From positions 1 through 42,385 of the forward strand of contig JADIIU010000109.1 in assembly GCA_027603945.1 (NCBI GenBank): 42,385 nucleotides of DNA, in the 5' to 3' direction. The DNA is from Terramyces sp. JEL0728 (lineage: Eukaryota; Chytridiomycota; Chytridiomycetes; Rhizophydiales; Terramycetaceae). The position numbers and the translations under genes were made by a program. Numbering within the stretch: position 1 is the stretch's first letter; every line of letters starts with the position of its first letter. Under the pieces are notes generated by a model, which did no database searches, was not told where the DNA came from, and worked only from the letters and a program-made list of their open reading frames with translations. Positions 314-42,357 of the stretch are shown one piece after another.

Positions 314-745
314 TTAACCGACTAAACCTCCTACATTACTAGATGGCTGGCCGTTTGGATATTTAGTTTGAAAATCTTTCTCACGTCTAAACATTAGGAT
401 GTGTGGTTCAGGTTCTAATTAGTATAAACGTACTGTGAATCATGTAATGTATCCAACCTGGGCTCTGTTTAACTCCGAATTGCCTCCATTCATGTTCAGC
501 CATCAATCTGCCCTGAGGCATCCACTTTGCTACATTAAATCCAATCAACCTATTTGCTTTGGAACGTTTACATGTCTATATTCGTATTCGTCGTCGTAGT
601 AGCGTGGTGAGTAATAAATATCGTCTTCCTACATTTAATCCTTGATTACGTATTTCATAACATCCTGATCCCTTTGTTCTGCTTCGTTGCTTTTCCTTGA
701 TCTGTTCCCAAAGGAAAACTTGCCATCGCTTGAAATGGAAGACAT
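314..745 (-). CDS. CKS1: Cyclin-dependent kinase regulatory subunit Cks1/Suc1
   Basis: A small adaptor that binds CDKs and phosphorylated substrates in cell-cycle control. The gene is split by three tiny introns at 629-649, 530-549 and 415-433 (21, 20 and 19 nt). Spliced, it gives 123 residues. The family signatures are all visible: IYYSPRYYDDEYEYRHV, then the HEWRQFGVKQSPGWIHY block with the conserved W and G, then PEPHILMFRR, the last beta strand. The N-terminal 32 residues are serine-rich and poorly conserved, and the tail after FRR is short. The ATG at 745 begins MSSISSDGKF. Because no exon exceeds 101 nt, single-frame reading misses it. It is divergent from RPA12, with 302 bp between start codons. 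The identification is very secure; the C-terminal dozen residues are less so. Confidence 0.93.
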
Positions 746-1047
746 TTTTGTTACTAGCACCAGATGGGAAAAAATGGTTCTGGACAAAAATCGAACCACA
801 AAGAAAAGAATAGAAATACAGCAACTATAAAGCCGATATGGCCGACTGCTGGATTATTTGATTTCGTATTGCGAGTGCGCATCCAGAAAGCTGCTGATCT
901 AGTATAAAAAACCACTTTTTGAAAATCATCCGGAATCGAGTTGTTGAAGATTTGTTGAACAGATTCGACTCGCAATAATCTAATTTTTAGGCTATAGCAA
1001 AATATCTGCCTTGTGTTTTTTTGAAACTTTTTCAAACAAAAAAAATT
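746..1047. other. Divergent intergenic region CKS1 / RPA12
   Basis: 302 bp between two outward-facing start codons, so it must hold both promoters. I see no RNA gene and no conserved reading frame. Open frames across it are shadows that run into RPA12 on the opposite strand. An A-rich run lies immediately before the RPA12 ATG. Confidence 0.6.
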
Positions 1048-1470
1048 ATGAAGGAGCATTCGTTGGTATTTTGCCCCGACTGTGGATCTTTGCTGGACCA
1101 GCCGTCGGGAGAAGATGATCATGTAGAATGCTATTGTTGTCGCACAGTGGTGCCAGCTTCTCGTAATTGAATTATAATGTAGAATTTGAATCCGTTGAAA
1201 TTGTAACTAAAAGCAGGCCAGATGTATTTTTAAACAAACCGAAAATCGCTGTGGAAAGTGCAGATAGACATAAGCATTTAAAGGAAGGGGCAACTGTAAT
1301 TGACAATAACTTTAGATTCAAGACAAGTGCCCTAACTGCGGCCACCATGAAATGGTTTTCCATACAGCTCAGCTGCGTTCTGCTGATGAAGGGCAAACGG
1401 TATTCTACAACTGCGTAAAGTGCGGGTAAATTTTCGTTAATCTAGTCACAAATACAGCATCAACTCTTAG
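1048..1470 (+). CDS. RPA12: DNA-directed RNA polymerase I subunit RPA12
   Basis: The TFIIS-like small subunit of Pol I, acting in RNA cleavage and termination in the nucleolus. Three 20-nt introns (1163-1182, 1296-1315, 1426-1445) leave 120 residues, close to the 125 of yeast. The N-terminal zinc ribbon shows CPDCG and CYCC. The C-terminal ribbon shows [10 protein letters not shown], then [19 protein letters not shown], which contains the invariant RSADEG with the catalytic acidic pair, and ends HKYSINS. Without splicing the frame breaks after residue 39, inside the third ribbon and at the end. All three introns begin GTAA and end in TAG, with TAAT or TAAC just before. It lies 70 bp upstream of CFAP100 on the same strand. 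Confidence 0.95.
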
Positions 1471-1540
1471 TCTAATAAATTAATATCTTTCAAATCACAT
1501 TATTTCTGTTATACAGTGACGCAATTCTGCTTTCACGAAA

Positions 1541-3306
1541 ATGTCAACGCAGATAAAACCTCCAGCAACGAAAAAACTGAATGCAGGGCCAATTGCCCCT
1601 AAATCAATTGGTATTTGAATGCTAATGATAGTCACACCGCGAAGTCGCATTTTGAAACTTCCAGAAATACATAGATCAGGAACTGTCGGAGAGCTGGATA
1701 GCAATCCGAAAAAGATAGAGCACGAAAACCCATTTCATATGCCTACAGATGTCGAAGTCTTTGCACTAAGGGAAAACGACAGGAATTTGAAAAGACAGAA
1801 AAAACAAGAAATGAATAACAAGAGTATTTATGAAAAGCACTCGTCAAAGAAAAAGAATTTCAAAGCATTGCTGGCAGAAGATCAGGATGATATTGAATTT
1901 TATAAAGGGATTCGAAAGAGGGATGTTGATAAAGTATTGGCAGCTCGACAAACGCGCGGTAACAAAAAAGCTGATGGTAGCTGATAGACATTTAGGAAAA
2001 GAGAATTTGCAGGATTTCATTGACAAAAAAAGGGAAATGTTTCTTGTCCACTATGCGCTTGGAGTGAAGCGAGACGAAATGCGTAAATTAGAAATGATTG
2101 CTCAGGTAAAAATATCTAATTTCAGAGAGAGGAGCAGAAACTATTGGATGACGAAAAAGCACTAGAAGAAGATGCAGCAAAATTTGACGCATTTTTAAAA
2201 GAGAATGATAAAAACTCTGTTGAAGCAATCAAAAAAGCAGAAATGGAAACAAAGGCAAAGCTGGAAAAAATCCAAGAAATCAAAAAGCTGAATGTGTCAA
2301 TTATGAGTATTCGTAGCGACATGACAAAGAACGAAGATCAACTCAAAGATTTGCAAAGGTACAGGCAATTCCTGGACAAGTTGACTCCAGCCGAATTCTT
2401 GGCCGCAAACAAGGTTATTTCATTGTAACGTAGAAAGAAGTTCAAAAAGATGACCAATCAAAGCTAAAGAAAGGCGGTTCTCAATCAAAATTGCTTGAAT
2501 CCGACGATAAAAAGAATGCTGCTGCAGACGATGACGACTTCCTTGATGCAGATCAAGCTTTGATTTATTTTAAAACCCCGGATCAATTACTAGATATATT
2601 TGCTGAACTGGAAGAAAATAATTTGGCAATGATTCAAAATTGCCAAGAAACTGAAGAAACCTTGGAAGAGTTAAAAGCCAAAATTGCCGAAACCACAGCA
2701 AAAATGGAAAATGAAACAGCAAACCTCAACCAGCAAATAGAGTTTTTGAATATTGCAATTGCAAAAGAAGAAGAAAAGGCGAAAATGCTGGAAGAAAGGG
2801 CAAAGTAAATTCATCTTAATTTAGGATGTTTACTTCCGGCGCAATGGGCGGCGACTCTCAAGAAAAGATGCTGGATGATTTGAATCATAAAGTAAAAGAA
2901 GTATATAGAAGATGCCTTGGTGACAATGATGGGGATCTATCTACATTGCAAATGCTTACGAGCATCGAAAATAGACTGGAACAACTATTCGAACAAATCG
3001 AGCTAATGCCTCTGGATAAAGTAGAAGAAGCTGAAAAAATGAAAGATAAAGAAAGAAGACAGCGTTTAAGAGAAGAAAAGTTGGAGGCCCAACGAGCACT
3101 GCAAGAAGAAAGAGTCCAGAGAGCTTTGGAAAGAGCTCGTGCGCCAGTAAAGAAAAAGGTAACTATATTTAACGCAGACTGGCAAACCTGTGGTGTTTCG
3201 ATCTGCACCACCGCAAAAAAAGAAACTTGAAGAACACGATACTAAAAAGAAGGAAGAAGGTGATGAGCCATTAATTATAGAGGATCTGGAGTACTACTGG
3301 AGCTGA
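1541..3306 (+). CDS. CFAP100: Cilia- and flagella-associated protein 100 (CFAP100/CCDC37)
   Basis: An axonemal coiled-coil protein linked to inner-arm dynein regulation (the MIA complex in algae). Six introns of 19-22 nt lie at 1611-1631, 1959-1980, 2106-2125, 2414-2433, 2805-2824 and 3159-3177. The spliced protein has 547 residues, against about 611 in human. Family blocks in order: NPFHMPTDVEVFALRENDR near residue 60, a basic coiled coil, FIDKKREMFLVHYALGVKR with RKLE, then EEDAAKFDAFLKENDKNSV and ETKAKLEKIQEIKKL, and YFKTPDQLLDIFAELEENNL with the following NCQETEETL. The C-terminus is charged coiled coil. It shows that the organism builds a motile flagellum, so a zoosporic life stage is expected. 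The start ATG begins MSTQIKPPATKK. Confidence 0.93.
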
Positions 3307-6088: not shown

Positions 6089-6224
6089 TATATCCAATTT
6101 AATATCCATTTTTATTTTGAATCCAATTTATTGGTCAGTGTAAACGAGTGATTTCAAATGGTCGATACGAGCTTTTTGTTCTGCTTTTACTTTAGGATCA
6201 ACATATCTACATTTAATATACTAA

Positions 6225-6419
6225 TTACGGGTTCCAGAAGTTGTAGTAAAGGAAACCTGCCCAAGCAGCAACCGGGATAGCCAAACGGTACCTGTATTTG
6301 AAGAAAAGACGGTCAGATAACTCTCCAAGTGTAGTTGATGAATTGACTCCAGAAAGGTCTGGGAGGATTTTTGTGGATGAGTGACGAACTAGTTTAGGAG
6401 CGAATCTGATTGGATTCAT
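6225..6419 (-). CDS. Small single-pass mitochondrial membrane protein, unassigned
   Basis: 64 residues from the ATG at 6419. The N-terminus (MNPIRFAPKLVRHSS) looks like a mitochondrial presequence: basic, hydroxylated and without acidic residues. The C-terminus RLAIPVAAWAGFLYYNFWNP is one short membrane helix ending four residues before the stop. This layout is typical of accessory subunits of respiratory complexes or of ATP synthase, but no subunit-specific signature is visible. An upstream in-frame ATG at 6503 would add 28 residues; I prefer the internal one because it starts the presequence. The same strand carries ATP synthase subunit f 263 bp upstream. Confidence 0.65.
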   Translation of the reverse strand: MNPIRFAPKLVRHSSTKILPDLSGVNSSTTLGELSDRLFFKYRYRLAIPVAAWAGFLYYNFWNP

Positions 6420-6682: not shown

Positions 6683-6908
6683 CTAGTGGAATTCGTATCT
6701 TGGGTGATCTACAATTAGCCAAGTATTTACAATGTCCACCTTTAAAGTAAGTTGCGCAGTATCCGATTGGAACCATGACTGCTAAAAAGTGTAATAATGG
6801 GACTGGTGAGTTGGTTTCAACATATTTTTCGAAATAGACTTCAAAGAATCCTTTTGGAGCTTGCTTTGCTTTGTTTCCCTTTGGGATTAATTTGTAGAAT
6901 GACTTCAT
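6683..6908 (-). CDS. ATP17: Mitochondrial ATP synthase subunit f
   Basis: A small Fo peripheral-stalk subunit of the inner membrane. One 22-nt intron at 6709-6730 moves the frame so that the protein ends YFKGGHYHPRYEFH, 67 residues in all; reading through the intron gives an unlikely tail. Family features: FYKLIPKG near the N-terminus, GFFEVYFEKYV, then LLHFLAVMVPIGYCATYF as the single membrane helix, followed by a basic and histidine-rich matrix or intermembrane tail. Yeast and metazoan versions are 88-101 residues, so this is a short form. It is divergent from SEC21. Confidence 0.8.
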
Positions 6909-7110: not shown

Positions 7111-9949
7111 ATGTCAAAGAAGAATGATGACGACAAGGGTAATTGATTTTAACACAGATGCAAATCCGTATATGAATCTAGAAAAGAGCGCAGTGTTTCA
7201 AGAGGCCCGCGTCTTCAACGAGTATCCAGTCAACCCAAAGAAATGCCGTATTGTATTGACAAAAATCGTTTATCTCTTACAGACACAGTCATTCCAAACA
7301 AAAGAAGCAACAGAAATCTTTTTCTCGATTACTAGACTGTTTCAGAACCAAGATGCAAGTGATTTGACTGACTTAGGTAATTTAGTCGTAATTTTAGGTT
7401 CCATTAAGACAAATGGTTTACTTGGCAATCAAGGAGTTGGCTTCGGTTGCAGAGGATGTGATGATGGTTACTTCATCCATTACAAAGGACATGAACGCAA
7501 AAACAGATTTAATATACAGACCAAATGCTGTTAGAGCGCTGACAAAAATTACTGATGTACAATAACACTAATGTAGGCTTCAATGATGCAAGGGATTGAG
7601 CGTTTTATCAAGCAGTCGATAGTCGATCGCAATCCGTAACTTGTTATTAACAAAGTGCTGTTGCAAGTGCTGCGTTGGTTTCTGCGATTCACTTGTTCCC
7701 CATTAACAAGGATGTTGTTAAAAGATGGGCAAACGAAACGCAAGAGGCAATCAATAGCAAGGGGGTGTCTGCACAATATCACGCTCTTGGACTGTTGTAT
7801 CAGATGCGAGCTCACGATAAAATGGCCGTCATCAAACTGGCACACAATTATGCCAAGGTAGTTTTACTTAATATCAGGGATCGCTAAGGTCTCCACACGC
7901 CGTATGTATGCTGATTAGATATATATGGAAAATCATGGATGATGAATCGCCTCAGTAATAGTTTTCTAACGATTGAACTCACTCCCTGTACGAATATTTG
8001 GAAAATTGGTTGAGACACAAGAACGATATGGTTGTGTTAGAAGCTGCCCGAGCTATTTGTAATTTAAGGGATGTTACCCAGAAGGAGCTTTTCCCTGCGG
8101 TATCTGCTCTGCAACTCTTATTGGTTAATCACAAAGCATCGCTCAGATTTGCAGCAATCAGAACTTTGAATGTGTTGGCAATGACACATCCTGCTGCAGT
8201 GTTCCCATGCAACCTTGATTTGGAAAATTTAATCACCGATTCAAACAGATCAATTTCCACATTTGCAATTACTACTTTGCTTAAAACCGGAAATGAGCAA
8301 AGTGTTGATCGCTTAATGAAGCAGATTGGAGGATTCATGTCTGAAATTTCAGATGACTTTAAAATTATCGTCGTAGATGCCACTAGAACTTTGTGCCTCA
8401 AATTCCCCGCCAAACACGTATCTATGCTGGCATTCTTGAAAGATATTTTGAGAGACGAAGGCGGCTATGAATACAAGAGGGCAATTGTTGAGGCTATTTT
8501 TGACATTATTAGAAATATTCCCGAATCTAAAGAATCTGGTAAGCTGTTATTAATGTAGCGTTGGAGCATTTGTGCGAATTCATCGAGGATTGCGATTATG
8601 CGAAACTTGCTGTTCGTATTTTGCATGTGTTGGGTGCAGAAGGTCCTAAAACGAAACAGCCAACAAAGTACATCAGATACATCTACAATCGTGTTATTTT
8701 GGAAAACTCGGTAGTAAGGGCTGCTGCTGTGTCTGCCTTGGCACAGTTTGCAGAGCACTTGGATGATGCTCGTGAACGCATCAAGATTCTTTTGGAACGA
8801 TGCACTGACGATAATGATGATGAGGTGCGCGACAGAGCTGTTATGTATTTGCGTATTATCAACAACAACGAGTTGTCAAGAAAATACGTTGCAAATGATT
8901 CATCATATTCGTGGCAAGCACTGGAAGCATCTCTCAATCGTTATGTTCAAAATCCATCCGAACATTCCGCTCCATTTGATATAACCAATATCCCTGTTAT
9001 AAGCAAGGCACAAGAGCAGTTGGAAACTCAGCGTAGCTAGTCTTTAATTATAGGTAAAAAGGCTGAAAAGAGCGAGCTGAACATCTCTGGCGCAGTTCCA
9101 GTCAAAGAAGTTGTCGAAGAAGAAGCTGTACATGACTACGCAACAGCGATGACTGAAATACCTCAGCTTGCGCAATTAGGCAGATTATTCAAATCCTCTG
9201 CTCCAGTGCAATTAACCGAGGCAGAAGAAGAATATGTCATTTCATGCATAAAACACGTTTTCCCAGAACACTTTGTGTTTGAAGTACTGCAGTTTTAACG
9301 TTAGTTCCATTGCAAAAACACTTTGAATGATTGCATTTTGGAAAATGTTCGGGTTGCGATGAGTGTGGAAGCTAGTGAAGATGAGTCTATTCAGTTCCTG
9401 GTGCCTCAGTTCTGTATCCCCGCCGACAAACTATTGTTTGACACTCCCAGTTCCGTATATGCTGTATATAAACGGGACAACAATGTCACTCCAACCGGCA
9501 AATTTAGCGTTACCCTTGAATTTGATCTCCACGACTGCGATCCAGACTCTGGAATTGTTGACGAAACTTCCTATCCTGACAAGTACCAACCTGAATCTGT
9601 TGATGTATACACTGGTGATTATATACTTCCAACTTATATCTCCTCCTTTGAAGACAGATGGGAAGAATTGCCAGCGTCAGCAACAGAAACTTTTGCACTT
9701 GCAGATGTCAAATCAATCAAACAGGCAGTTACACAGCTGCAAGAGCAAATTGGTATGCGTCCAATTGACGCTGTAATTAAAGAAGCTCCCCGCACTCAAA
9801 TATGCATGGGTGGCACATTCATCGGTGGTGAAGTGTGCTTGGCCAAAGTCAATCTAGTGCTATCTCCGAGTGAAGGAGTGACTATGCAGCTCAACGTCAA
9901 ATCTGGACACGAAGAGCTGAGCGACAGAATCGCCAACTCTGTTGAATAA
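7111..9949 (+). CDS. SEC21: Coatomer subunit gamma
   Basis: A subunit of the COPI coat for Golgi-to-ER and intra-Golgi vesicles. Nine introns lie at 7139-7157, 7355-7397, 7557-7576, 7636-7655, 7858-7877, 7955-7975, 8539-8558, 9033-9053 and 9284-9304. The spliced product is 877 residues (human 874). The N-terminal adaptin trunk shows [19 protein letters not shown] near residue 15, [12 protein letters not shown] and [20 protein letters not shown], and HEAT-like repeats continue to about residue 530. The C-terminal appendage domain (about 600-877) shows [18 protein letters not shown]. Two introns are odd. The one at 7355 begins GC and has the size of two introns. The one at 7955 must end in TG for the frame to continue. 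Total exon length is an exact multiple of three with these choices. Confidence 0.93.
7355..7397 (+). other. 43-nt intron that looks like two abutting introns (22 + 21 nt)
   Basis: Inside SEC21. The whole 43 nt must go for the frame to continue from LFQNQD into VPLRQMVYL. Its first 22 nt begin with a classic GC donor (GCAAGT) and end CTGACTTAG. The remaining 21 nt begin GTAATTTAG and end TAATTTTAG. Each half has the donor, branch-like motif and acceptor of a complete intron in this window, with no exon base between them. Confidence 0.7.
7955..7975 (+). other. 21-nt intron with apparent TG 3' splice site
   Basis: Inside SEC21. The donor GTAATA and branch-like TTTTCTAAC are standard for this window, but the intron ends GATTG. 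Removing it joins DESPQ to [12 protein letters not shown], as expected for gamma-COP. No AG lies between the branch motif and the needed frame, and TAG, TAA and TGA codons block read-through. A single-base error or a real GT-TG intron would both explain it. Confidence 0.6.
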
Positions 9950-10006: not shown

Positions 10007-11294
10007 TTAAAGTTCATTTTCAACGACAGCAGCGACACCCATACCGATACCGACACACATTGAAATCAAACCGTATTTTTGCTTTTGTCTTCTGAGCTCA
10101 GGAAGCAAGGTTGCAATTTGACGTGCACCAGTGGCACCCATAGGATGTCCAAATGCAATAGCACCTCCTTTTGGATTGACCTTGTTGACATCAATTCCTA
10201 ATTCTTTTACACAATATACAGCTTGGGAAGCAAATGCTTCGTTGATTTCGTAAACACCGATATCACTTTGTTTCAATCCAACTTGTTCCAAGACTGCAGG
10301 GATAGCAATTGCTGGGCCAACACCCATAATTCTTGGTGGAACACCAACAGCGGCATAGCCTAACCATCTTGCTTGGATCTTTAATCCAAGTTTGTTTGCC
10401 AAGCTACGGCGCATCAACAAGACAGCAGCTGCACCGTCAGTGACTTGTGAAGCATTACCAGCAGTGGTGGTGCCGTCTTTCTTGAATGCAGGTCGGAGCT
10501 TTGCAAGACCTTCTGCAGTGGTTCCACGGATACCGTCATCCGAGTCAACAACAGTTCCATTTGAAAGGGTAATTGGTACAATTTCGTCCTTGAATAATCC
10601 TTCCTTTTGTGCTTTGGAGGCCAAAGAGTGGGATCGTAAAGCGAAAGAATCTTGCTCAGCTCTGGTAACGCCAAATTCGGCAGCTACGTTTTCGGAAGTT
10701 GTTCCCATAGGAATGAGACTAGGGTTAAAAACATTATTACACATCGGCAGCTGGTCCGTAGTTCAATACATCTTCGCTGAGGTCGGATGGCATAGCTCCA
10801 GGACCATAGTACATTGTCATGGATTCTACACCGGCACCGATACCACAGTCGATGTATCCAGCCTGGATTGCAGCGGCAATCGCACCACATGTAGCTAAAC
10901 CACTGGAGCACTGTCTGTTAACAGCACAAGCAGCAGTAGTGTCTGGGAATCCGGCGTAAAGGGCAGCCATACGAGCAGTGGTAACACCAGCTCCAGGCAT
11001 CAAAACATTACCAACTTGAATATCTTGGACGATCTTTGGTTCGATACCGGTCTGCTCAATAATTCCCTTTAATACTTTTGCCATGATAAACTCTGGGTGG
11101 GTTTCACGGAATCCTCCCTTTCCAGCTTTAGTGAGGGCAGATCGAAGTGCAGAAACAATTACTACATCGTCTGGTGATTTTGGTGCCTTGGCTAATGAAT
11201 TAATTACGAGGCTACCTTTTGGAACACCTGCTCCAGACTTTGGTCCTCCCAAGTGGGAAGAGATGCTTTCAACACGACGGTTAGCTGATGCCAT
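10007..11294 (-). CDS. POT1: Peroxisomal 3-ketoacyl-CoA thiolase
   Basis: Catalyses the last, thiolytic step of fatty acid beta-oxidation. One 22-nt intron (10719-10740) joins GPAADV to LIPMGTTSENVA; the product is 421 residues (yeast Pot1 417). From the ATG at 11294 the N-terminus reads MASANRRVESISSHL, whose RVESISSHL fits the PTS2 peroxisomal import signal (R-V-x5-H-L). Catalytic features are present: NRQCSSGLA with the nucleophilic cysteine, GGAIAFGHPMGATGAR with the histidine, and CVGIGMG with the second cysteine. Two upstream in-frame ATGs would push the PTS2 inward, so I choose the nearest one. It is convergent with SEC21 (57 bp). It pairs functionally with the Fat1-type synthetase at 18345-20477. 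Confidence 0.95.
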
Positions 11295-21669: not shown

Positions 21670-21671
21670 CT

Positions 21672-27263: not shown

Positions 27264-27268
27264 TTTTT

Positions 27269-27559: not shown

Positions 27560-27565
27560 ACGTCA
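27560..27565 (+). promoter_or_regulatory. ACGTCA element, receptor-like gene 2
   Basis: ACGTCA, within TCACGTCATT, ends 10 nt before the ATG of copy 2. Confidence 0.5.
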
Positions 27566-27575
27566 TTCAATCTTG

Positions 27576-29042: not shown

Positions 29043-29119
29043 AATAAACCGTGTGCGTTTCTTGACTACGCCGTTAACTGTACAGCGTTGTTATATCTTT
29101 TACTCTTTCTTGCACGTAG

Positions 29120-29125
29120 ACGTCA
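29120..29125 (+). promoter_or_regulatory. Second, upstream ACGTCA element of receptor-like gene 3
   Basis: ACGTCA, 58 nt before the ATG of copy 3, in addition to the proximal site at 29166. Only this copy shows two sites. Confidence 0.35.
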
Positions 29126-29165
29126 TGCTGTTGCCAATCTTCCATCAGTAGCACACGACTTTTTG

Positions 29166-29171
29166 ACGTCA
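29166..29171 (+). promoter_or_regulatory. ACGTCA element, receptor-like gene 3
   Basis: The site reads TGACGTCA, a full palindromic CRE, and ends 12 nt before the ATG of copy 3. Confidence 0.55.
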
Positions 29172-29183
29172 GCCAATTAGGAC

Positions 29184-30680: not shown

Positions 30681-30735
30681 AATTGAATTTACTTTCACCT
30701 TGAATCCTATTTTGAATAATCAAATAATTTCCATT

Positions 30736-30741
30736 ACGTAA
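30736..30741 (+). promoter_or_regulatory. ACGTAA element, receptor-like gene 4
   Basis: The variant TTACGTAA, itself a palindrome, ends 7 nt before the ATG of copy 4, at the place where other copies have ACGTCA. Confidence 0.4.
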
Positions 30742-30748
30742 TCTGCTA

Positions 30749-32215
30749 ATGCTGCCAACATGGATTAATAGATCACCTTTTACGGCCGCAGGATACACGA
30801 TTCAATCAGTTTGGGATTCATATAATTGTAACTCTGCACCCGTATCAATTATGGTATTTAATAATACTTTGTCAACAAACCTAACGTACTATGCAGATCT
30901 GTATTCCCCAGCACCGTCTTGCGGTCAAGCAGGAGCCAGCATATATTCTGGATGCTGTTTTCAAATATACTCTCCCTTACTGTCAAAATACAAATCTTTT
31001 GAAAGACACGACATCACAAAAGATGTTTCGCTAGAGTATCCTGCCAATTCTAATGGATTTGAATATTGTACATTGATGAGCAATCTTTCTGACGGAATAG
31101 TACGCACAAGCATCTTGGATAACAACAACTGCGAGGAAGGATTGCTCCGCTGCAATGGAGACTTTCTTTATGTATATAGTCAAATGGATTGCCAAGGAGC
31201 CGCAACGGCATTTAATGTGTATAATAACTCAAAATTCAAAAGCTATTCTATAAGCAAAGAAAGAAGCATCAATGGAGCGATGGAAATTAAGTGGGTGACC
31301 TCTATACCCTATCAACCACAGCTGGCTCATCTCTACGGATACGCACCTTTAGAAATAGTGGCAATTATTGCATCTGCGCTGGCAGTACTGGGGTTTTTGC
31401 TTTCATCTGCATTTTGTTTGAAAAAATACATCAGTGTTCCCAACAGAGATCATTTGTTTCTCCTTGTGACGCAGATTATGTGGGAAAGCAGGTGTATACT
31501 AACTCTAATTTATGTGTATTATGTCTGCCAGACATATTTGGGCAGCCAAGTTATCCTGGCAGTATGGTCCTTGACGTTTCTTTGCAGTGTAATGTCCACG
31601 CTTGTCAGCGCAAACATTCTGCTCAAAGTTTTGAATGCGGAAAGCGATAGAGTGAAATCCTTTTGTTTGTATGCTTCACTTTTGGCTATTGCAATAGTAC
31701 TTGGCGGCCCTACTTTTTTCTACTTTATCTATTTTTTGGCTGGCGACAGTAGTTTTATTCAAAACCTCTACTCTTCGTATGTCGATCAATTATATTTTGG
31801 ATGGGAATCGTTCATGTTTTTATTTGATATTATCCCACCTGCAATTATACTGTTCAAGATGGCAGTACTAAAATCAAAAAACATTCGCCAAAAAGAACAG
31901 ATAGATGGATGGAAAAGAATAATCTATGCAATGTTTGTCGCAGAAGGAGTCAATATCATTACTTATGTTGTATTATTCACACTGCAGTACCACACCACCT
32001 TACTTGGAGGCGACAATCAATTTGAAAGTGTTTGGGTTCTGCAGTTACTCAACTTTTTTATCCATAACATGATCATACTATCGCTATTTGAATGCTTCAA
32101 GGAAATGATGAAAGTCACCATAATCCAGGTTGCAATCAATCCGAAACAGTCAGAAACGATATTACAAGGAGATGCAAACAAAGATACGCTAATTGAGTTC
32201 TCAATTAAAACCTGA
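30749..32215 (+). CDS. Receptor-like 7TM protein, copy 4 of the array, weak signal peptide
   Basis: 488 residues, intronless. The eight ectodomain cysteines, YSGCC and SFERH, and seven helices are intact (helix 2 TQIMWESRCILTLIYVYY, helix 5 DIIPP, helix 7 end FECFKEMM). The N-terminus from the ATG at 30749 is MLPTWINRSPFTAAGYTIQS, which lacks the hydrophobic core of a signal peptide found in copies 1-3. Either insertion relies on the first membrane helix, the true start lies elsewhere, or the 5' end is decaying. No alternative ATG in frame gives a better leader. Gene spacing is only 68 bp from copy 3. Confidence 0.82.
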   Translation: MLPTWINRSPFTAAGYTIQSVWDSYNCNSAPVSIMVFNNTLSTNLTYYADLYSPAPSCGQAGASIYSGCCFQIYSPLLSKYKSFERHDITKDVSLEYPANSNGFEYCTLMSNLSDGIVRTSILDNNNCEEGLLRCNGDFLYVYSQMDCQGAATAFNVYNNSKFKSYSISKERSINGAMEIKWVTSIPYQPQLAHLYGYAPLEIVAIIASALAVLGFLLSSAFCLKKYISVPNRDHLFLLVTQIMWESRCILTLIYVYYVCQTYLGSQVILAVWSLTFLCSVMSTLVSANILLKVLNAESDRVKSFCLYASLLAIAIVLGGPTFFYFIYFLAGDSSFIQNLYSSYVDQLYFGWESFMFLFDIIPPAIILFKMAVLKSKNIRQKEQIDGWKRIIYAMFVAEGVNIITYVVLFTLQYHTTLLGGDNQFESVWVLQLLNFFIHNMIILSLFECFKEMMKVTIIQVAINPKQSETILQGDANKDTLIEFSIKT

Positions 32216-32426
32216 TAGCTTGCTTCTATTGACACTGTAAAAGGCTCAACGAAAGGATTCTAAAGAGCAGATTTGACCATCCTGTTAAAGACAGAGATCC
32301 AATAGCCCCTGATACTTTGGCGACCCAAAAGCAAGTAGACTAGTGTTATATACAAGCATGATCCAAGTGCTTTCACGATAAATAAATTGGTTGTATAGCG
32401 TAAATCATTAGTATTCTATTTAAATC

Positions 32427-32432
32427 ACGTCA
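32427..32432 (+). promoter_or_regulatory. ACGTCA element, receptor-like gene 5
   Basis: ACGTCA, within TCACGTCACC, ends 12 nt before the ATG of copy 5. Confidence 0.5.
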
Positions 32433-32444
32433 CCTTATCCAAAT

Positions 32445-33905
32445 ATGTCAATGGATACATTAGTGGCACTAATATCATGGGAATATACTGTATGCAGCGG
32501 CCCTGCCACATTTGTAAGTATATTTGACGAATCACAACTTTCACCTGGTTTACTTTACTATGCAACATACAATTTGACAATTGGAGAGACATGTGGAGCT
32601 GCTTCGCTGCCAATAGCGGAAGGATGCTGCTTTGAGTCATACGATTTACCATCAACTAATGGAATTCTATCGTATGAAAATCATTACATCAAGCACATTG
32701 ATTATACATTATTCCCCCCAGAGTCGAATGGAAATCAATATTGTCGAATTATATCCGACGAGTTAGAGCTATATTTCCTATCATCCGATATATGTTTCTT
32801 TGATAATTTCAAATGCAGCAACCAGTCATTTGTATACTATCCAAATTCTGCCTGTCTAGGAAATCCACAAGCGTTTGAAGTGTCGAATTATAATGCCGTT
32901 GCAGAGCTGGAGCAATATTTTGGGAATCAAAGCAGGTTTGAAATAGTAACCATTTCAAATGGAGAATTGCATATTGTTTGGACATCGGTAATCCCATACT
33001 ATCTCGTTTATCTGGGTACTGGATCTCTAATTGAAAAATTTGCTCTGGCTTCATCAGTAATATCGGTGTGTGGATTCCTACTTACAATAATATTTTATGT
33101 GGTAAAGTATTTTCAAACAAAAAGATTGGTCCACGGATACTTTGTGCTGACTCAGTTAGTGTGGATCCTCAGAGTAATATTTACTATATTGCTGTTCTAC
33201 TGTCCCGCTTCTGAAGTTGAATCAAACGTTTTTTCCTCGATATGGAGTATCGTTGATGTGTGCACATACATGTCCGCATTGATTAGCGTCCACTTGATAG
33301 TTCAAATTCTAAATTGGGCCGATAATCTAAAGAAAAAATCAATATTGTACGGAGTGGTTTCTCTAATCAACTTGGTATTCGCTGGGCCATCGTATTTTTA
33401 CTTTATCTATTATTTCCAGGCTACATATGATTTGTTTGGCTATTTTTATGATTACTACAATGGGACGTTGTATTACGCGTGGGAAATATTTGCATTTGTG
33501 CTGGATTTAATACCTCCGATACTGCTACTTGGGAGAATCTCATCTGTCAACATCAGCAAACTAGAAAAGAAAAAATCGTTAGAGTTTATCAAATGCAAAC
33601 GGTATATTTACATCCTGTTGACAATTGACACAGCCAATGTGATTGGGTTCACCATAGAGGTTTTCTTCCAGTATCAAACGTTGCTGGCGGGTGGCGATAT
33701 CACATTCTATAGTGTCTGGATAATCCAACTGATTAACTATCTCATTCACAGCCTTATTTTGCTGGCGCTGTATGAAATCATGACAAAGATGATGAAGATT
33801 AAATTATCCAAAGGGACTGTAAAGATAGCAAGCGACAAAAAGACAGTGGTCAAGCCGCACTCCAAGAACACTGAAAGAGATTCTGAAAAGATAACAACCA
33901 AATAA
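32445..33905 (+). CDS. Receptor-like 7TM protein, copy 5 of the array (most divergent)
   Basis: 486 residues, intronless. The eight ectodomain cysteines are kept (VCSG, TCG, GCC, YC, IC, KC, AC) although the surrounding sequence is divergent: YSGCC has become AEGCC and SFERH has become SYENH. Helix 2 reads TQLVWILRVIFTILLFYC, helix 5 DLIPP, and helix 7 ends YEIMTKMM. The leader MSMDTLVALIS is short. The tail is strongly basic (DKKTVVKPHSKNTERDSEK). A possible outgroup copy of the array, with its own selective history. The 3' end is convergent with ARL1, 33 bp away. Confidence 0.83.
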   Translation: MSMDTLVALISWEYTVCSGPATFVSIFDESQLSPGLLYYATYNLTIGETCGAASLPIAEGCCFESYDLPSTNGILSYENHYIKHIDYTLFPPESNGNQYCRIISDELELYFLSSDICFFDNFKCSNQSFVYYPNSACLGNPQAFEVSNYNAVAELEQYFGNQSRFEIVTISNGELHIVWTSVIPYYLVYLGTGSLIEKFALASSVISVCGFLLTIIFYVVKYFQTKRLVHGYFVLTQLVWILRVIFTILLFYCPASEVESNVFSSIWSIVDVCTYMSALISVHLIVQILNWADNLKKKSILYGVVSLINLVFAGPSYFYFIYYFQATYDLFGYFYDYYNGTLYYAWEIFAFVLDLIPPILLLGRISSVNISKLEKKKSLEFIKCKRYIYILLTIDTANVIGFTIEVFFQYQTLLAGGDITFYSVWIIQLINYLIHSLILLALYEIMTKMMKIKLSKGTVKIASDKKTVVKPHSKNTERDSEKITTK

Positions 33906-34661: not shown

Positions 34662-35800
34662 TTAAAGCTTTGCGAGTGTTTTTGGAATTCCCAATGCATT
34701 TAATTCCTAAAATTAACCCAAGACATACCTGTCCAAAATCTGAAGAAGTATCCTTTTCATACGGTTTAGCTAATAGAGTTGTGATTGCCTTCAAGCACTT
34801 TCGTTCATCATCGGTCAACTCTACATTTTGCTTTCCAGCTGCCACGTAACTTCTTATTTCGGGTTTCTTGGCTGCTTCCAGTTTCTTGCCTGAAGCAATC
34901 AACTTTTTTAAAAAGTATTCTCCGGCTGGTTTGCCAGTCAATGGGTTATAAATCGAGCCAACTTTCTTTGAAAGCTATCGTTAATTCGAGTATACTGTTT
35001 CCAAAGCTGATGGAGAGGTTTTCAACTCTTTTACGACGGAATTCAAAAACTTTTTGAATTGAACCATATCTGGAGCTGAAATAGTTTCATACAATGCAGG
35101 AACAGCCTCGACTTGCTTTTCGTTAACTGGAGCATAGTTGGCATGCACATCTTCCTTTTGAACATGCATCGGGCGAGTATCAGTGTCTAAAGCTGAAAGT
35201 GCATGTTCCATATAAGTGTCCTGATCTGCATTATCTTGGATCGATGTGCTCTCGCGATAAATAGTGTACTGGATTCCTTCATCGAACGACAGGTATGGAT
35301 TGAGGTTTTCTGCAAGTTCTCTGTTATTGTATGCGGAAGCAACTGCAATTTCAGAAACTTCAGAATCAATGACTTTGCCAACGTTTGGCTTTGAAGACAA
35401 TGGCGCTCTGTTGATACGAGGTTGATCATTCTAAGTTAGCATTCGCTTACTGAATACTGTGAAACAGTGTAATCCAATTGCAATTCTAAATGATTGACTT
35501 CGTTATCCTCGTTTCCAACGTAAATGATTTCCTCCTGGCGTTAGCAATAGATACTTCTTCTGGAGCAACGATTTGACCGTCATTTGGCGGGTAGTAAGCT
35601 TCCATTGATACTTGTTCGATAAGCTCGTTGTCAATGTTGTTTTCGAGCTTTTGCGCCAGGTAGTAGTAGGAGGATTCGGATTTCGATTCCAATGGAGTAG
35701 CTTCCAAGATTTCCTGCAGTTGTAATTCGTGGTCGTTGTCTGCAGTCTCGGATTGAGTGCCGTACACTTGCTGTAGCAATTGCTCAACGTCTTGCTTCAT
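34662..35800 (-). CDS. Acidic protein of unknown function, five exons
   Basis: 351 residues after removing four introns of 20, 20, 21 and 22 nt (35535-35554, 35431-35450, 34975-34995, 34707-34728). The ATG at 35800 begins MKQDVEQLLQQVYG. I recognise no family. The first 250 residues are Glu/Asp-, Ser- and Tyr-rich and probably disordered. The C-terminal 100 residues look folded and helical: NPLTGKPAGEYFLKKLIASG, PEIRSYVAAGKQNVELTDDE, and an end with ELNALGIPKTLAKL. The last exon is only 45 nt. The regular splicing supports a real gene. Confidence 0.78.
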
Positions 35801-36153: not shown

Positions 36154-36891
36154 ATGCAAAGAAGAGCTTCAATATGCAGCGAAATGCCGAAATTGAGTAC
36201 GACAAATTTGCATCAAACCAATGAATCAAAAAGAAGAATGTCTGTCGATAGTAAAACGGTATCTGGCAGTTAATATAGCCAACAGCAAAATCAATATCAA
36301 GAATACTTTTGCAATTAAAATCGGAAGAATATCCTTCGGAATTGGAGCTGGAATTTGAAAGAAGAGTAAATAAATCATTGCCGGACATACCAAGGGACGA
36401 AGCAGACGATGTAATTAAAGTTTCATATAGATATCCATGAATATGTCACCAACATCACCGGCAAAATCGTACTTTTCTAGGACTTCAAGATTAAACCCCG
36501 AAAATAATGTAGGCGTTGCTAATATAGTATTCTTCAAGGTTAAGGGAAGAAATGCGCAGATCACCTTGTCCACAGTCGCCTATATCCTCAGCAATGAAGA
36601 GAAAGTTCTCGCATTGCGATTTCCCTCAAGATAAGAATGGCGATTTTTACAGACCTATTAAAAGGCTGATACGGAGAGATGGTAGCTTTTACTAATTTAG
36701 GTGTTTATCCAACCTATACCCACCATAGATCAAATAGCGGATCTAGTATAGTCACTGATGTATCAATGACTGGAACTCCTACAGCTGGTGCAGGCTCGCC
36801 ATTATCAGAGAGTCCGCGACTCGTCCCAGGTGCATTACCACTTAATCTCACTTTTGCAGGAAGTGAATTTTCAAAGATGAGACTAAATTAA
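36154..36891 (+). CDS. Small serine-rich disordered protein, five exons, unknown function
   Basis: 219 residues after removing introns at 36259-36278, 36411-36430, 36509-36527 and 36682-36700 (20, 20, 19 and 19 nt). The ATG at 36154 starts MQRRASICSEMPKL. The protein is basic, rich in Ser, Pro and Arg, and disordered. RRAS and KRRMS are PKA-type sites, and several SP/TP sites (MSPTSPAK, CPQSPIS, ESPRLVP) suit proline-directed kinases. No domain is recognised. A regulatory phosphoprotein is the natural guess. The gene is certain mainly from the four well-formed introns that keep one frame through otherwise closed sequence. Confidence 0.72.
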
Positions 36892-36951: not shown

Positions 36952-38650
36952 ATGAGGAATTTCTTTATGAAAGCTAAAGATTCAGTAGGAATTGCCGCAT
37001 TGGAACATGCCTTCCTGTCAGAGCATAAAGAATCTAGATTAGAGACACCTGTGGAAAGAGCTGAGAGGTTCTCTTTAATTGACAACCAGGCAAGGAACAC
37101 AGTTGCGACTGCCTCTACTGGAAGGATGTAACGATGAAAGGTAGATCCTCACTTATTAGCTTCCACACTAAATATTCCAATAAAGTCAAACAGACTGGGA
37201 AAGCTGCTATCGATAAAACTGTCAAATTGGAAGAAAGGAGATACAGATCAAAACCACTATCGGTTCAGGATAAATTCGATTATATCAATGTCCTTACTGA
37301 AAGATATTTGCACAATGCAAACAACCCAACAAAACAAGATGTTATCAACGCGCATAATGTAATTGGTATTCATAATAGAAATTTCTTTCTTCTCTTCGAA
37401 ATTTTGAACATAGAAAGAAAGCAAAGTTTCTCAGTGACCAACTTTCAAACAGAAGTCTGCAAAGTAGAAACTCTGAAACGACTTTATCGGACTACACCAT
37501 GCCTAGTATATTTGTAGATAGGAGAAAGAAAAAGGAAAATGATGGAGAGAGTATGATTGCGCGACTGTACTTTAGTCTTGGCCATAAACATCCATCCGAT
37601 GCACACAAAGCACTAGTTGAACACGATAAAAAACTACGAGCAATGAGGAAATCACTAGCAGTGGGAGAAGTATTTCAGATAATGAAATGCGCCAACAGAT
37701 CAAACTCGGATTTAATTAGTGTGGACGATTATTTAAAAAACTTGCCAGCATTTTCAAATCTTCCTGATTATGTTCTTGCTGATATGTGGAAATTGATTGT
37801 AGCAGAAAAATACGACAAAGGCGATGTTCTTTTTAGACAAGGTGATCCTGGTGCAAAGTGGTTTGTTATACTACAAGGCAGCGTGAAGCTGTTTGTCAAC
37901 AAAGGAATATCAACTAACGGCAAAGCAATTGTGAATTATCTTACAACTATGAATACCGGTGAAAAGTTTGGTGATCAAGCTTTGTTTAATGATTTGCCAA
38001 GAAGCACAACTGTCATTGCTGACAGTCAACCGACATACATGCTCACCTTAGAAAAGGTACATTTCCTAAAATTGATGGGAAAAGTACATGTGTACAATCA
38101 AAAGAATTTAATTGGCACCCTAAGGAAGTTTAGATTTTTACAAAATTTGGATAATGCAAGTTACAAAATAATTGCCGATCGAATGGTATCGCGTACTCTA
38201 CCGCCAGACACTGTTATTCTGAAGCAGAGTGCTTTTGTTGATACCGTATTTTTTATTATATCAGGCAAATGCGCGGTATATCGAAAGGTCAAAATTACGG
38301 CCAACTCTGGAAAAACTATTACAAAAAACGTGTATATGGGCTGCTATGGGCCTAATTCAACTTTTAATGAGCAGGCAGCATTCACTGACCGAAAGATGCC
38401 CTCGCCATACACAGTAATAGTCAAAGAGCCCTCTGAAATCGTGTCCATAGTTACTAATGGAGAATGGCTTAATCTGCGATTGAACTTTGAAAGCTCGATA
38501 TTTGCCACCATGTCTGATGAAGAAATTTTATACAAATACAGCATCTGCAAGGAAACGGAATCATTCAGAAAGTACCAAAACCGGTTCATAACTGACCTGC
38601 ACAAATCCAATAATAGTATCAAGTTAGCGGTACAGAATAATTTCGAATAA
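36952..38650 (+). CDS. Protein with two cyclic-nucleotide-binding domains (CNBD2-like)
   Basis: The core (37499-38650) holds two cNMP-binding folds. Domain 1 (about residues 225-340) shows DKGDVLFRQGDPGAKWFVIL, then GEKFGDQALFNDLPRSTTVI, the phosphate-binding cassette with R and T. Domain 2 shows PPDTVILKQSAFVDTVFFII, and its cassette (STFNEQAAFTDRKMPSPYTV) lacks the canonical arginine position, so it may not bind. A 20-nt intron lies at 37359-37378. For the 5' end I join an upstream exon from the ATG at 36952 through a 32-nt intron (37128-37159), giving 548 residues. The alternative is a start at 37134 with no first intron. Relatives are flagellum-associated in animals. Confidence 0.78.
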
Positions 38651-38692: not shown

Positions 38693-39427
38693 ATGAATCT
38701 CCTCTACTTTTGCTTCTCGTTCCTTTTCGGTATATTCAGCTAATCCCAGCGACTACTTTGGCGAAACTTGATCCATTTGATCTTGCAGACATTAAAGACG
38801 CCCCAGAAGTTGAATTTGTCCACGATTTCCCAAAGAATCCATTTTCACACTTCAACATCGATGAACAGGGTCTCGTTCGTATCAACATCACCAACAAATC
38901 TGATTTAACCAAGACTGTATTTGGTCTTACTGGAATTTATACAGATAAGGATGATGTCAAGAAAGTCATTGCCAAAATCCCAACTGAAAAAGTTCAAATT
39001 ATTGTTAAACCTGGAAAGACTCAGTTTTTGAAATATAAATTCATGCCGCAAGCTGAAGCAGGTGATTTTGGATTAGTTGTTTTGGTTGATTATTATGATT
39101 CTGAAGAGCCTGCTTATAAATCTGTTGGATGCATCGACACTATCAAGATTGTTTATTCTGATTCACTATTCGATTTGCAAAGGTATTTTCTTTTAATTTA
39201 GCATTTCAATTTATCTCTTGTTGATTGGCGTTGTTGTTGGTTTGGTTTATGTGATTGCTACACCATCTGGCGATTCAGACTCAAAGGCAACAAAGAAACC
39301 AAAGGCAAAGAAAGCTGCTCCACCTCCAGTCAAGAGGGAAGATTCTCAAACTGAAGCCAACATGGAATGGATCCCAGACCATGTTGCTAAAACTCATAAT
39401 AAGACTGCCGCAAAGAAAAGAAAGTAA
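38693..39427 (+). CDS. SSR1: Translocon-associated protein alpha / Irc22-like ER membrane protein
   Basis: 231 residues after removing introns at 38730-38749 (20 nt) and 39183-39201 (19 nt). The ATG at 38693 gives a signal peptide MNLLYFCFSFLFATTLA, interrupted by the first intron. The lumenal domain has HFNIDEQGLVRINITNKSDL and PQAEAGDFGLVVLVDYYDSE, an immunoglobulin-like fold of TRAP-alpha. A single membrane helix (IYLLLIGVVVGLVYVI) follows the second intron. The cytosolic tail is lysine-rich with EWIPDHVAKTHNKTAAKKRK, resembling the ends of fungal Irc22 proteins. TRAP assists the Sec61 channel in the ER. Confidence 0.85.
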
Positions 39428-39455: not shown

Positions 39456-40637
39456 TTAAAGGCTTGCAATAACAGCGTCCGTGAATTGGGTGTTTGTTGC
39501 TTTACCTCCCAAGTCGCCGGTTCTAGCATTACCCTCGGCAATGGTTTTCAATACTGCCTTTTCGATTTCATCGGCATGTTGGTTTAATTTCATGTGTCTC
39601 AACATCATTACGGACGATAATAATAGAGCGGTTGGGTTGGCCAAATCTTTGCCAGCAATATCTGGAGCAGTTCCATGGACCTACAGTTAGAAAACACTTA
39701 CAGATTCAAAGATGCTTGCTTTCAAACCAATGTTTCCAGATGGGGTTAAGCCTAAACCACCGATTAAACCAGCGCCTAAATCGGACAAGATATCACCGTA
39801 TAAGTTTGGCATAACCATGACTGTATCTTTGTATTGAGTTGGGTCTTTTACTAATTGTAAACATACACTATCTAATAATAGTGCTTCCATTTTGATATCT
39901 GGGTAATCCTTTGCAACTTCTTCAGCTACATACAAGAATAAACCATCAGACATCTTTTGAATGTTGGCTTTGTGGACAACAGTAACAGTTGAACGGCCAA
40001 TTGATCTGGCGTAGTTGAAAGCATAGTGATTGACTCTTCTGCAAGCTTCTTCAGTGATCAATTTGATAGATTGGACCACTCCTGGTACTACTTCATGTTC
40101 GATGCCAGAATATTCGCCTTCAGTGTTTTCGCGAATGAGGACAGTATCGACATTATCAAACGGAGTTTTATACCCGATGATAGATTTGCAAGGACGAACA
40201 TTGGCATAAAGGTCAAATGTTCTTCTCAAAGTCAAGTTCATAGAGACGTGTCCTTTACCGATTGGAGTTGCAAGAGGTCCTGATATTAATTTAGAGTACC
40301 TTTTAATGCGACTTTGTTTCTGTTGACAGAGTGTAGCGCTTCATCTGGAATTGTGGTAACTCCGTTTTTGAGGAAAGGAGTAACATCGACATCTTCCCAC
40401 ACAATTGGAACCTAAATTACAGTCAAAATACATTGTTTGCGGCAAAGATTCTCTTTACTGATTGGGATATTTCTGGTCCAATACCATCCCCAGGAATCAT
40501 AGTAACAATATGTTTTCCGTCCTACTGTAAAATACCCCAGTACCTTTGTAAATGCACCGTCAGTAAACTCTGTGAATGAGCGAGAGAGAGGCTATATTAA
40601 ATTTGTAGAATACTTTTAATAATGCGCGGAACTTCAT
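39456..40637 (-). CDS. IDH2: NAD-dependent isocitrate dehydrogenase, catalytic-type subunit, mitochondrial
   Basis: Oxidises isocitrate to 2-oxoglutarate in the TCA cycle. Five introns (40592-40613, 40522-40543, 40412-40431, 40280-40299, 39681-39701; 20-22 nt) leave 358 residues. The presequence [14 protein letters not shown] spans the first intron. Motifs: [48 protein letters not shown] with the active-site [25 protein letters not shown], then [18 protein letters not shown] and [35 protein letters not shown] is of the Idh2 type, not Idh1. Its ATG is only 4 bp from the ATG of the divergent FMP32. Confidence 0.95.
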
Positions 40638-40641: not shown

Positions 40642-41269
40642 ATGCAAAAAAAAATTTCGCTTGGAATGTTTAGAACGGCGATTTTGAGGAATCACAACTT
40701 TGATACTTACAAATTCGTACAGCGGTTGGAAGCAGATGGGTTCAGTCGCGAGGGTGCTGAAGCAATAATGAATTCTCTAACTGAAGTAGTTTACGATTCG
40801 TAAGTTCATTGTAATGTAGATGCGCGAATCTAGAAAATTCATCGGTTACCAGGCCTGATTTTGATAAAGCTTTGTACGTAGCAAGAGTCGATTTGGCGCA
40901 GTTACGGTCCGAAATTTCAATGGTAACTGTGGGTTAAAATAGTTGGAAAAGAATGAGTTTTCATTATTAAAACAGGATATTAGGAGATTGAATTCTGAAG
41001 CTATGAAATTGCCAAGCAGGATTACTGAGGAAATTAAAAGGGTCCAGTCCAACGTGCGATTAGAATTATCGCTGGACAAAGCCAAGATTAGAGATGAACA
41101 AAATACGCAGGAAATGAAAATCAAGGAAGCTGCCTCAAGGATAGATACAGAAGTATCGCAATTCAAGACTCAAATGGAAACTATTCAGTGGGAATTATTC
41201 AGGACACTCTTCCCCATCTTTACCGCAGGTGGTGCTCTATTCTTTTCTTATTTACGTTTTATCAAATAA
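40642..41269 (+). CDS. FMP32: Fmp32/MCUR1-family mitochondrial coiled-coil protein
   Basis: 195 residues after removing two 20-nt introns (40800-40819, 40923-40942). The family (DUF1640, CCDC90) comprises inner-membrane proteins linked to cytochrome oxidase assembly and, in animals, to the calcium uniporter. Motifs: FVQRLEADGFSREGAEAIMN at the start, ALYVARVDLAQLRSEIS in the middle, a long coiled coil to about residue 165, and a membrane helix LFPIFTAGGALFFSYLRF at the end. The first ATG (40642) is 4 bp from the IDH2 start; an in-frame ATG at 40666 begins MFRTAILRN, an equally good presequence, and would leave 28 bp. Confidence 0.88.
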
Positions 41270-41300
41270 ACTATATTCTCTAGTGCCTTGGTGTTATATT

Positions 41301-41347
41301 CGTGAGTGTTGGCCTTGATCGTGAGTGTTGGCCTTGATCGTGAGTGT
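41301..41347. repeat. 19-bp tandem repeat, about 2.5 copies, upstream of GET4
   Basis: CGTGAGTGTTGGCCTTGAT at 41301-41319 is repeated exactly at 41320-41338, and the first nine bases recur at 41339-41347. It ends 55 bp before the GET4 ATG, so it lies in the promoter or leader. Confidence 0.9.
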
Positions 41348-41402
41348 GTATCCGGCGATCGAAGGGTAAATCTTGCTTGATTTTCACCTGAAATAATCTC
41401 AA

Positions 41403-42357
41403 ATGTCGGGAGCGCAAAAAGTTCTCCTAAAGCTACGCAAGAATGTGCAGGGTAATTGGCATTAACGAAAGATGGAGATTATTACGAAGCCTACCAAATG
41501 TACCACTCAGTGTCCCAGCGATTCATTAAACAGAAAAAACAGGATCAAGCTGTTTCTCTACTTATGGACGGGATCAAAACCATGAACCAGCATAACCAGC
41601 ATGCATCCGCACTTGATTTAGCAGACCGTTTGATGGAATTATATGCGACACCAAATACCGACGCAATTTCCCATTTAGCCCAAGTATTTTACACTTTCCC
41701 GTTGGATTCAGCTCAATGTGATTTGTTCATCAAGAATGCGTTGAAATGGTCCAAAAACGATAATTCTTTGAATCATGCATTTGGATGTCGATATGCCAAA
41801 GGTTAGTGCGGTTTAATGTAGATGGACAATATTATAACGCCGAAACCCATTTATTTAACGGGACATTGGATTCAATCAAAGTATTGGCAAGGATGGAATT
41901 GGAATTCAGCAAACTAGGGTACTACGATGACATGGGCTACTTTATTGCACGCGCGAGTTTGCCTTTACTTGCGCTGGGTAAATATTCTGAAGCAAAAACT
42001 TGTCTGGACCTATTCACTGCAGGGTTGGACTCGGATTTCCAAGTGGAAAATGTCAATGATACTCCAATTTCCAGACACAAATTGTACAATTTTACGCAGT
42101 TGCTAATTGCATTGATTGGGAGGAACCAGGGACATTTATTCAGCACCATCGTGAACAATTATCAAACGGAACTATCTTTTGATTCATTTCTGTTGGAGGT
42201 AACTTGTCTGTTAACATAGTGCGTAGCCCAAATCGGCAAAGTTTACTTTGGAATTGGAATCAAGCAAAAGCAAGCTAATCCATTTGCTGAAATTATGAAA
42301 ACTATGTTGAATCCAACTCAGCAGTTGCAGATCGCCGAAGATTTAGATATGGATTGA
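41403..42357 (+). CDS. GET4: Get4, tail-anchored protein targeting factor
   Basis: Get4 holds Get5 and Sgt2 next to the Get3 ATPase, delivering tail-anchored proteins to the ER. Three introns (41452-41471, 41802-41821, 42199-42219; 20, 20 and 21 nt) leave 297 residues. Family features: GDYYEAYQMYHSVSQRFIKQ near residue 18, LLMDGIKTMNQHNQHASALD, then YAKDGQYYNAETHLFNGTL across intron 2 (the repeat YAxxGxxxxAExHF). The end reads IGKVYFGIGIKQKQANPFAE, as in Get4 tails. All helical alpha-solenoid. It is complete within the window; only 28 bp follow its stop. Confidence 0.92.

Follow-up and report, generated by a model that had tools for sequence, protein, structure and literature searches.

Introns of about 20 nucleotides as the probable usual intron class in the nuclear genome of the chytrid Terramyces sp. 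JEL0728

How small an intron can be for the spliceosome to remove it, and what fixes that limit, are questions raised by a stretch of 42,385 nucleotides (nt), called the window here, which is the whole contig JADIIU010000109.1 of Terramyces sp. JEL0728, a chytrid in the order Rhizophydiales (assembly of 15.0 Mb in 231 contigs). An earlier note on this DNA, made from the letters alone, had placed about 66 introns in it, some 63 of them 19-24 nt long and about half of exactly 20 nt, and had taken the host to be a fungus, which the source of the contig bears out. Ultra-short introns are already known in other eukaryotes (PMC9505925, PMC10245619, PMC2483917, PMC5014332; here and below the papers are cited as far as their available portions go). 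These cases come from ciliates, relic nuclei and parasites; in some of them splicing factors are missing or changed, and in several no branch point can be read. New here would be a fungus that combines thousands of 20-nt introns with a readable, nearly constant branch site and several conventional-looking splicing factors, a combination in which the smallest spacings between 5' site and branch and between branch and 3' site can be measured directly. The evidence in the sequence points, with a probability that we put at roughly 0.94, to genuine spliceosomal introns of the U2 type, 19-22 nt long, in a chytrid nuclear genome, where they appear to be the usual intron class and not a peculiarity of this contig.

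The curated list for the window holds 68 introns, of which 66 measure 19-22 nt, so that the count first claimed is confirmed closely. The lengths are 19 nt (7), 20 nt (33), 21 nt (16), 22 nt (10), 24 nt (1) and 41 nt (1). GT-AG ends were found in 66 of the 68, with one GC-AG and one GT-TG, and 63 of the 68 start with GTA. For spans of 19-22 nt of the form GTA..TAAY(0-5)AG, both strands of the window together yield 57, whereas 60 dinucleotide shuffles predict 12.6. The divisibility by three of the reconstructed coding lengths had also been offered as support, but this is weak evidence since any gene model forces it.

In order to avoid circular reasoning a gene finder was written whose only inputs are coding composition, stop codons, GT..AG segments of 12-60 nt and a flat penalty, with no preference for length or motif; a finder based on codon scores was too weak and was dropped. 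It was applied to 242 kb, made up of the window together with a 10-kb stretch of each of the twenty largest contigs, which is not a random choice. This unbiased finder called 140 GT..AG introns in the range 12-60 nt, and 93 have a length of 18-23 nt. A GTA start is present in 88% of these 93 short introns and TAAY or TGAY in 79. From the presumed branch A to the last G there are 5-6 nt in 72 of the 79, and from the first G of the 5' site to the presumed branch A 13-14 nt in 70 of the 79.

A second model was trained on the output of the unbiased finder and favours short introns. It placed 311 introns in 245.6 kb from 22 contigs, 288 of them of 19-22 nt (71 of 19 nt, 133 of 20 nt, 62 of 21 nt and 22 of 22 nt), which is the narrow range below about 27 nt that marks genomes with ultra-short introns. 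Complete genes alone contributed 282 introns in 133 genes, together with 40 intronless genes, and extrapolation from this set gives about 17,500 introns in the genome. The window and all twenty 10-kb stretches contain introns of 19-22 nt (21 of 21, with 2 to 62 per stretch), so that the trait belongs to the genome. In a run that admitted all 3' pairs but penalised those other than AG, 308 of 314 introns still ended in AG. The motif count in the trained set was made on 275 of the 282 introns, 7 being left out, and TAAY or TGAY is present in 224 of the 275 against about 95 when the interiors are shuffled. The 3' ends are TAG (178), CAG (67), AAG (25) and GAG (6; n=276), and the introns are 70% AT. 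The 5' splice site resembles GTAATT; the usual G at +5 is scarce (about 21% G and 44% T) and T is preferred at +6.

The location of the motif relative to genes bears on an explanation of another kind, namely that these are short DNA elements eliminated from the genome at some stage of life, like the internal eliminated sequences of ciliates. Their narrow lengths and their number do resemble those of the eliminated sequences of Paramecium. Such elements carry TA repeats at both ends and lie in either orientation. In 202 kb of genes the 19-22 nt motif unit occurs 204 times in sense and 21 times in antisense, and 17 times on the two strands of 40 kb of intergenic DNA. Moreover, the segments begin with GT, close with AG and carry a branch motif, and no common TA..TA ends are found in the curated list. 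We give this explanation practically no chance. Ends of GT-AG or GC-AG, a motif before the 3' end that is complementary to the GUAGUA box of U2, location on the sense strand and restoration of the protein by removal all agree with U2-type introns. A weak or absent branch signature has been stated for three lineages with ultra-short introns (PMC2483917). Here the TAAY motif is clear, and the Terramyces introns are thus a variant of this class.

Gene finders can also invent short introns to mend reading frames, as has been suspected for ultra-short introns of Tetrahymena (PMC5014332), and the segments could accordingly be artefacts of assembly or gene calling. In a similar run of the unbiased finder with other end pairs the length peak was missing: GT-AG gave 69 introns of 18-23 nt and the fifteen other pairs 4-16. 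The unspliced DNA of one gene contains 33 stop codons. Residual 21-nt candidates in the spliced coding sequence showed no excess, which tells little as the finder itself strips such segments.

Homology speaks against artefacts as well. Solved structures served for comparison with six spliced proteins, of which IDH2 and GET4 are encoded in the window and CCT6, PP2A-A, TOP1 and RPN6 elsewhere in the genome; for a CPR protein no solved structure matched at the threshold used. These six contain 36 introns. The alignments do not reach 6 of these, and 2 more coincide with an insertion in TOP1; the remaining 28 junctions are all free of an intron-sized gap, one in CCT6 lying within 4 residues of a one-residue gap. 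In IDH2 (reverse strand) four junctions lie within the aligned part, that of the 21-nt intron 39681-39701 being gapless against PDB 3blv; the other three introns are of 20 nt (40280-40299, 40412-40431) and 22 nt (40522-40543), and a fifth, of 22 nt (40592-40613), comes before the aligned part. The alignment of GET4 (forward strand, Pfam match) is distant, with several small gaps away from the junctions, one of them of six residues; its three introns, of 20 nt (41452-41471, 41802-41821) and 21 nt (42199-42219), have their junctions within the aligned part. The alignments revealed in addition three insertions of seven residues, needless for frame repair, two in TOP1 (residues 138 and 266; locus L018, 3351-5725) and one in PP2A-A (residue 54; locus L006, 2082-3980). 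All three correspond to 21-nt GT..AG segments that contain a branch-like motif and are free of stops in the reading frame, and introns of this kind are invisible by frame alone.

IDH2, GET4 and SEC21 are the three window proteins that were compared residue by residue. SEC21 (forward strand) has introns of 19 nt (7139-7157, the same join being present in the deposited protein P0001), of 20 nt (7557-7576, 7636-7655, 7858-7877 and 8539-8558) and of 21 nt (9033-9053 and 9284-9304), besides two unusual sites. The first is a putative back-to-back pair at 7355-7397, a GC-AG unit of 22 nt (7355-7376), placed with the help of chytrid homologues, followed by a GT-AG unit of 21 nt (7377-7397). Removal of 7377-7397 alone leaves the frame off by one and was rejected, while the pair mends the frame and the spliced protein then reads like the chytrid homologues. 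The second is a putative 21-nt intron (7955-7975) with normal branch geometry that ends in TG instead of AG. Among the deposited proteins encoded by this contig, SEC21 was chosen for comparison, and it uses seven of the ten junctions of the present model. Taken with the missing length peak, the 28 junctions and the seven-residue insertions, this leaves the artefact explanation very improbable.

Several points weigh against this reading. The splicing is predicted from sequence, and the branch A is placed by the position of the motif. Of the 140 introns of the unbiased finder 47 lie outside 18-23 nt and are spread without a peak. In the comparison of end pairs, GT-AG reached a total fit of 4290, the runner-up GT-AA 4266 and a model with no introns 3833, and the other end pairs also use 54-98 "introns"; since the total fit differs so little between end pairs, what distinguishes GT-AG is the peak in length. 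The tight spacing in the trained set (5-6 nt in 196 of 224 and 13-14 nt in 187 of 224) is partly built in by the model, of which the unbiased set is free, and the preference of the trained finder for short introns means that longer ones may be undercounted among its calls of more than 25 nt (6 of 282). As to the machinery, U2AF65 is clearly present but matched exon by exon and below the curated cut-off, the family search for U1 gave no match, its controls being silent too, and a true U6 was not found by a family search. Two weak U6 matches below the cut-off were rejected; they lie within a predicted protein gene and cover one of its introns. Of the ribosomal RNAs, 5.8S was sought and had no match although the controls of that search responded, and a conserved pattern of 16 bases had none either.

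The earlier note had proposed to look in the parts of the spliceosome for changes that accept so short a distance from branch to AG. No such change was found among the parts viewed: U2 small nuclear RNA (snRNA; 140 bits) keeps an intact branch-pairing GUAGUA box, SF1, Slu7 and Prp18 score above their cut-offs, and the glycine plug of Cwc25 is intact (MGGGDLNLKKSWHP). The matches to Slu7, Prp18, SF1 and U2AF65 come in pieces, as is expected of intron-bearing genes. Isy1 is present too. Stentor coeruleus has introns of 15-16 nt whose branch consensus is weak, and for this species neither Slu7 nor Prp18 was found and loss of the glycine plug of Cwc25 is reported (PMC9505925); the presence of all three in Terramyces indicates that these losses are not required for introns of about 20 nt. 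Real introns could nevertheless be handled by a spliceosome with special changes, of the sort proposed for Stentor, in parts beyond those compared, such as SF3B1, Prp8, Yju2, U1, U5 or U6. The odd model of Isy1 (locus L035) can be read in favour of this, as three introns parted by exons of one and three bases stand upstream of the Isy1 match and the predicted N terminus may differ from the usual one. Given the intact Cwc25 plug, the presence of Slu7 and Prp18 and an ordinary U2, we regard such an alteration as unlikely. By eye, a 63-nt intron call in the SF1 gene (locus L026, 656-2107) seems to swallow conserved coding sequence and to contain a 17-nt intron, GTGTTTATTAAAAATAG.

If the segments are spliced as ordinary U2-type introns, the intron RNA would be just long enough to reach from a 5' splice site that pairs first with U1 and later with U6 to a branch site paired with the unchanged GUAGUA box of U2. 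The AG would follow the branch A at about the shortest workable distance, which leaves no space for a polypyrimidine tract, and the range of 19-22 nt would reflect the play in the two spans, 5' site to branch and branch to AG. As the splicing factors found look conventional, the limit would come from the geometry of the shared catalytic core and not from a rebuilt machine. Terramyces introns might in this way offer a natural substrate for structures of the spliceosome.

Some introns are predicted to stand back to back. Internal exons of zero length account for 3 of 202 internal exons in the gene finder output: in the window at 25125-25166, in TOP1 of locus L018 and in one gene of locus L020 (118-731). 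The window pair lies in a permease-like gene on the reverse strand and consists of two 21-nt units, 25146-25166 being the first and 25125-25145 the second. Homology adds a third unit in TOP1, which gives a triple of 22+21+21 nt. The units abut as AG|GT and no splice site is split; in spliceosomal twin introns (stwintrons), by definition, an internal intron interrupts a splice site of the external one. Such introns could be removed either unit by unit or as one intron of double length. A strict scan for high-scoring back-to-back units found none and missed the known pairs too, so that the evidence for the pairs comes from units of lower score, from gene models and from protein homology. It is conceivable that the spliceosome of Terramyces acts as a fixed caliper of 13-14 plus 5-6 nt, unable to remove much longer introns, and that longer stretches survive only as AG|GT chains of complete 20-nt introns cut successively by recursive splicing with zero-length exons, but we consider this doubtful. 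A call of 45 nt in locus L006, which ends in CTAATCTTAG and is not an obvious double, would, if real, speak against a strict upper limit of length.

Comparison with known systems helps to place these introns. The earlier note had named ciliates and chlorarachniophyte nucleomorphs as precedents, a list that holds but is incomplete, as mikrocytids (16-17 nt) and dicyemids belong to it too (PMC10245619, PMC2483917). Stentor introns share with those of Terramyces the very small and narrow lengths, AU richness, the GTA start and a spacing of 5 nt between the branch A, which is nucleotide 10 of 15, and the terminal G (PMC9505925), whereas Terramyces has introns of 19-22 nt, a clear TAAY and the three conserved features discussed above. 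In the nucleomorph of Bigelowiella natans the introns are of 18-21 nt, narrow in range and numerous (PMC10245619, PMC2483917, PMC5014332), but it is a relic nucleus with about 300 intron-bearing genes and, in the available portions of these papers, no reported branch signature, while Terramyces combines a fungal genome of 15 Mb with a clear branch motif. Mikrocytid introns are likewise tiny, uniform and conserved in sequence; Mikrocytos, however, is a parasite with 224 introns and a much reduced spliceosome, in contrast to the extrapolated 17,500 introns and several standard factors of Terramyces (PMC10245619).

Among fungi and their relatives, Yarrowia lipolytica has its branch motif 2 nt before the AG and no polypyrimidine tract, close to the gap of 2-3 nt in Terramyces, but its introns average about 269 nt and are compact at the 3' end only (PMC2483917). 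Encephalitozoon cuniculi, a fungal relative, has short introns (mean 35.8 nt) with a TAAY motif, although these are longer, number about 13 in the genome and belong to an extreme parasite (PMC2483917). The authors of a survey covering 644 fungal genomes regard a mean of 63 bp as relatively short (PMC8476143). Short introns are not mentioned in the available portions of two chytrid genome papers (PMC5364385, PMC13391722), and the intron length of chytrids is not given in those of PMC3569864 and PMC7466969. No report of ultra-short introns in chytrids and no Terramyces genome paper was found among the papers listed by a limited and therefore weak literature search, mostly without subscription papers.

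On the practical side ultra-short introns damage the deposited proteins of the Terramyces genome. The deposited TOP1 keeps one 21-nt intron as the residues RLQLMIG, which are absent from the seven chytrid homologues aligned (of 120 listed), and it stops inside another intron so that the C-terminal part is lost. The deposited SEC21 proteins of Terramyces and Boothiomyces both break at the junction 7955-7975. Moreover, the Boothiomyces protein has seven extra residues, NRDLKIG, exactly where Terramyces has the intron 9033-9053. Translated back in the frame of their surroundings these residues would fit a retained segment of 21 nt with a GTAAY start and an ATAG end, which is a hint that Boothiomyces may share ultra-short introns. 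Extra residues also occur in two other models of the TOP1 alignment, five at a Terramyces junction in Homolaphlyctis and four at the triple site in Boothiomyces; neither has seven, and no explanation is offered for these.

Two pairs of similar loci on different contigs allowed introns and exons to be compared directly. Loci L036 and L037 are 98.9% identical and their predicted exons differ by 16 substitutions. Both single-base indels inside predicted genes sit in introns, which change from 21 to 20 nt, the gene bases compared being 121 of intron and 2354 of exon; 13 indel columns scored as exon are an overhang at the cut end of the locus. Loci L031 and L032 are 99.2% identical and have no internal indel in exons or introns, one other indel being intergenic, besides an overhang of 10 columns. 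Transitions make up 13 of the 14 exon substitutions between L031 and L032, those 13 all in one direction, and 16 of 16 between L036 and L037. The pairs would be haplotypes or duplications, perhaps with a bias of repeat-induced mutation.

The other introns of the window are distributed over the following genes, named by Pfam match where stated and otherwise after the earlier note or by eye. On the forward strand, RPA12 (Pfam) has three introns of 20 nt (1163-1182, 1296-1315, 1426-1445). The CFAP100-like gene (DUF4200, Pfam) has introns of 21 nt (1611-1631), 20 nt (2106-2125, 2414-2433, 2805-2824) and 19 nt (3159-3177), as well as a weak call of 19 nt (1925-1943) with no branch motif at the usual place. 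Predicted genes contain introns of 19 nt (16283-16301, 36509-36527 and 36682-36700) and 20 nt (36259-36278, and 36411-36430, a weak call with displaced branch motif). In a cyclic-nucleotide-binding-like gene (named by eye) the motif of the 20-nt intron 37359-37378 is also displaced and the call is weak. TRAP-alpha (Pfam) has introns of 20 nt (38730-38749) and 19 nt (39183-39201), and the CCDC90-like gene (Pfam) two of 20 nt (40800-40819, 40923-40942).

On the reverse strand, CKS1 (Pfam CKS) has introns of 20 nt (530-549) and 21 nt (629-649), a predicted gene one of 22 nt (6207-6228), ATP synthase subunit f (Pfam) one of 22 nt (6709-6730) and a thiolase-like gene (by eye) one of 22 nt (10719-10740). 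The ATG11-like gene, a name taken from the earlier note, has introns of 20 nt (11791-11810, 12542-12561, 13233-13252, 13911-13930, 14190-14209, 14438-14457, 14536-14555), 22 nt (14672-14693) and 24 nt (14801-14824), together with two weak calls, one of 21 nt with displaced branch motif (12862-12882) and a segment of 41 nt with uncertain boundaries (14936-14976). Further predicted genes have introns of 22 nt (17394-17415, a weak call with displaced motif, and 34707-34728), 21 nt (17776-17796, 34975-34995) and 20 nt (17911-17930, 35431-35450, 35535-35554). The acyl-CoA synthetase-like gene (by eye) has one of 20 nt (19033-19052) and one of 22 nt (19951-19972), and the permease-like gene (by eye), besides its back-to-back pair, three of 21 nt (24384-24404, 24487-24507, 24939-24959) and one of 20 nt (24696-24715).

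Two further features of the window were noted. Five similar, intronless genes stand in tandem at 25675-33905 and encode proteins of about 490 residues that appear by eye to be multi-pass membrane proteins; the one tested had no Pfam match, and a similar protein is also encoded in locus L016. The tRNA-Cys gene is present in three near-identical copies, at 1-55 (cut by the contig end), 133-204 and 3444-3515.

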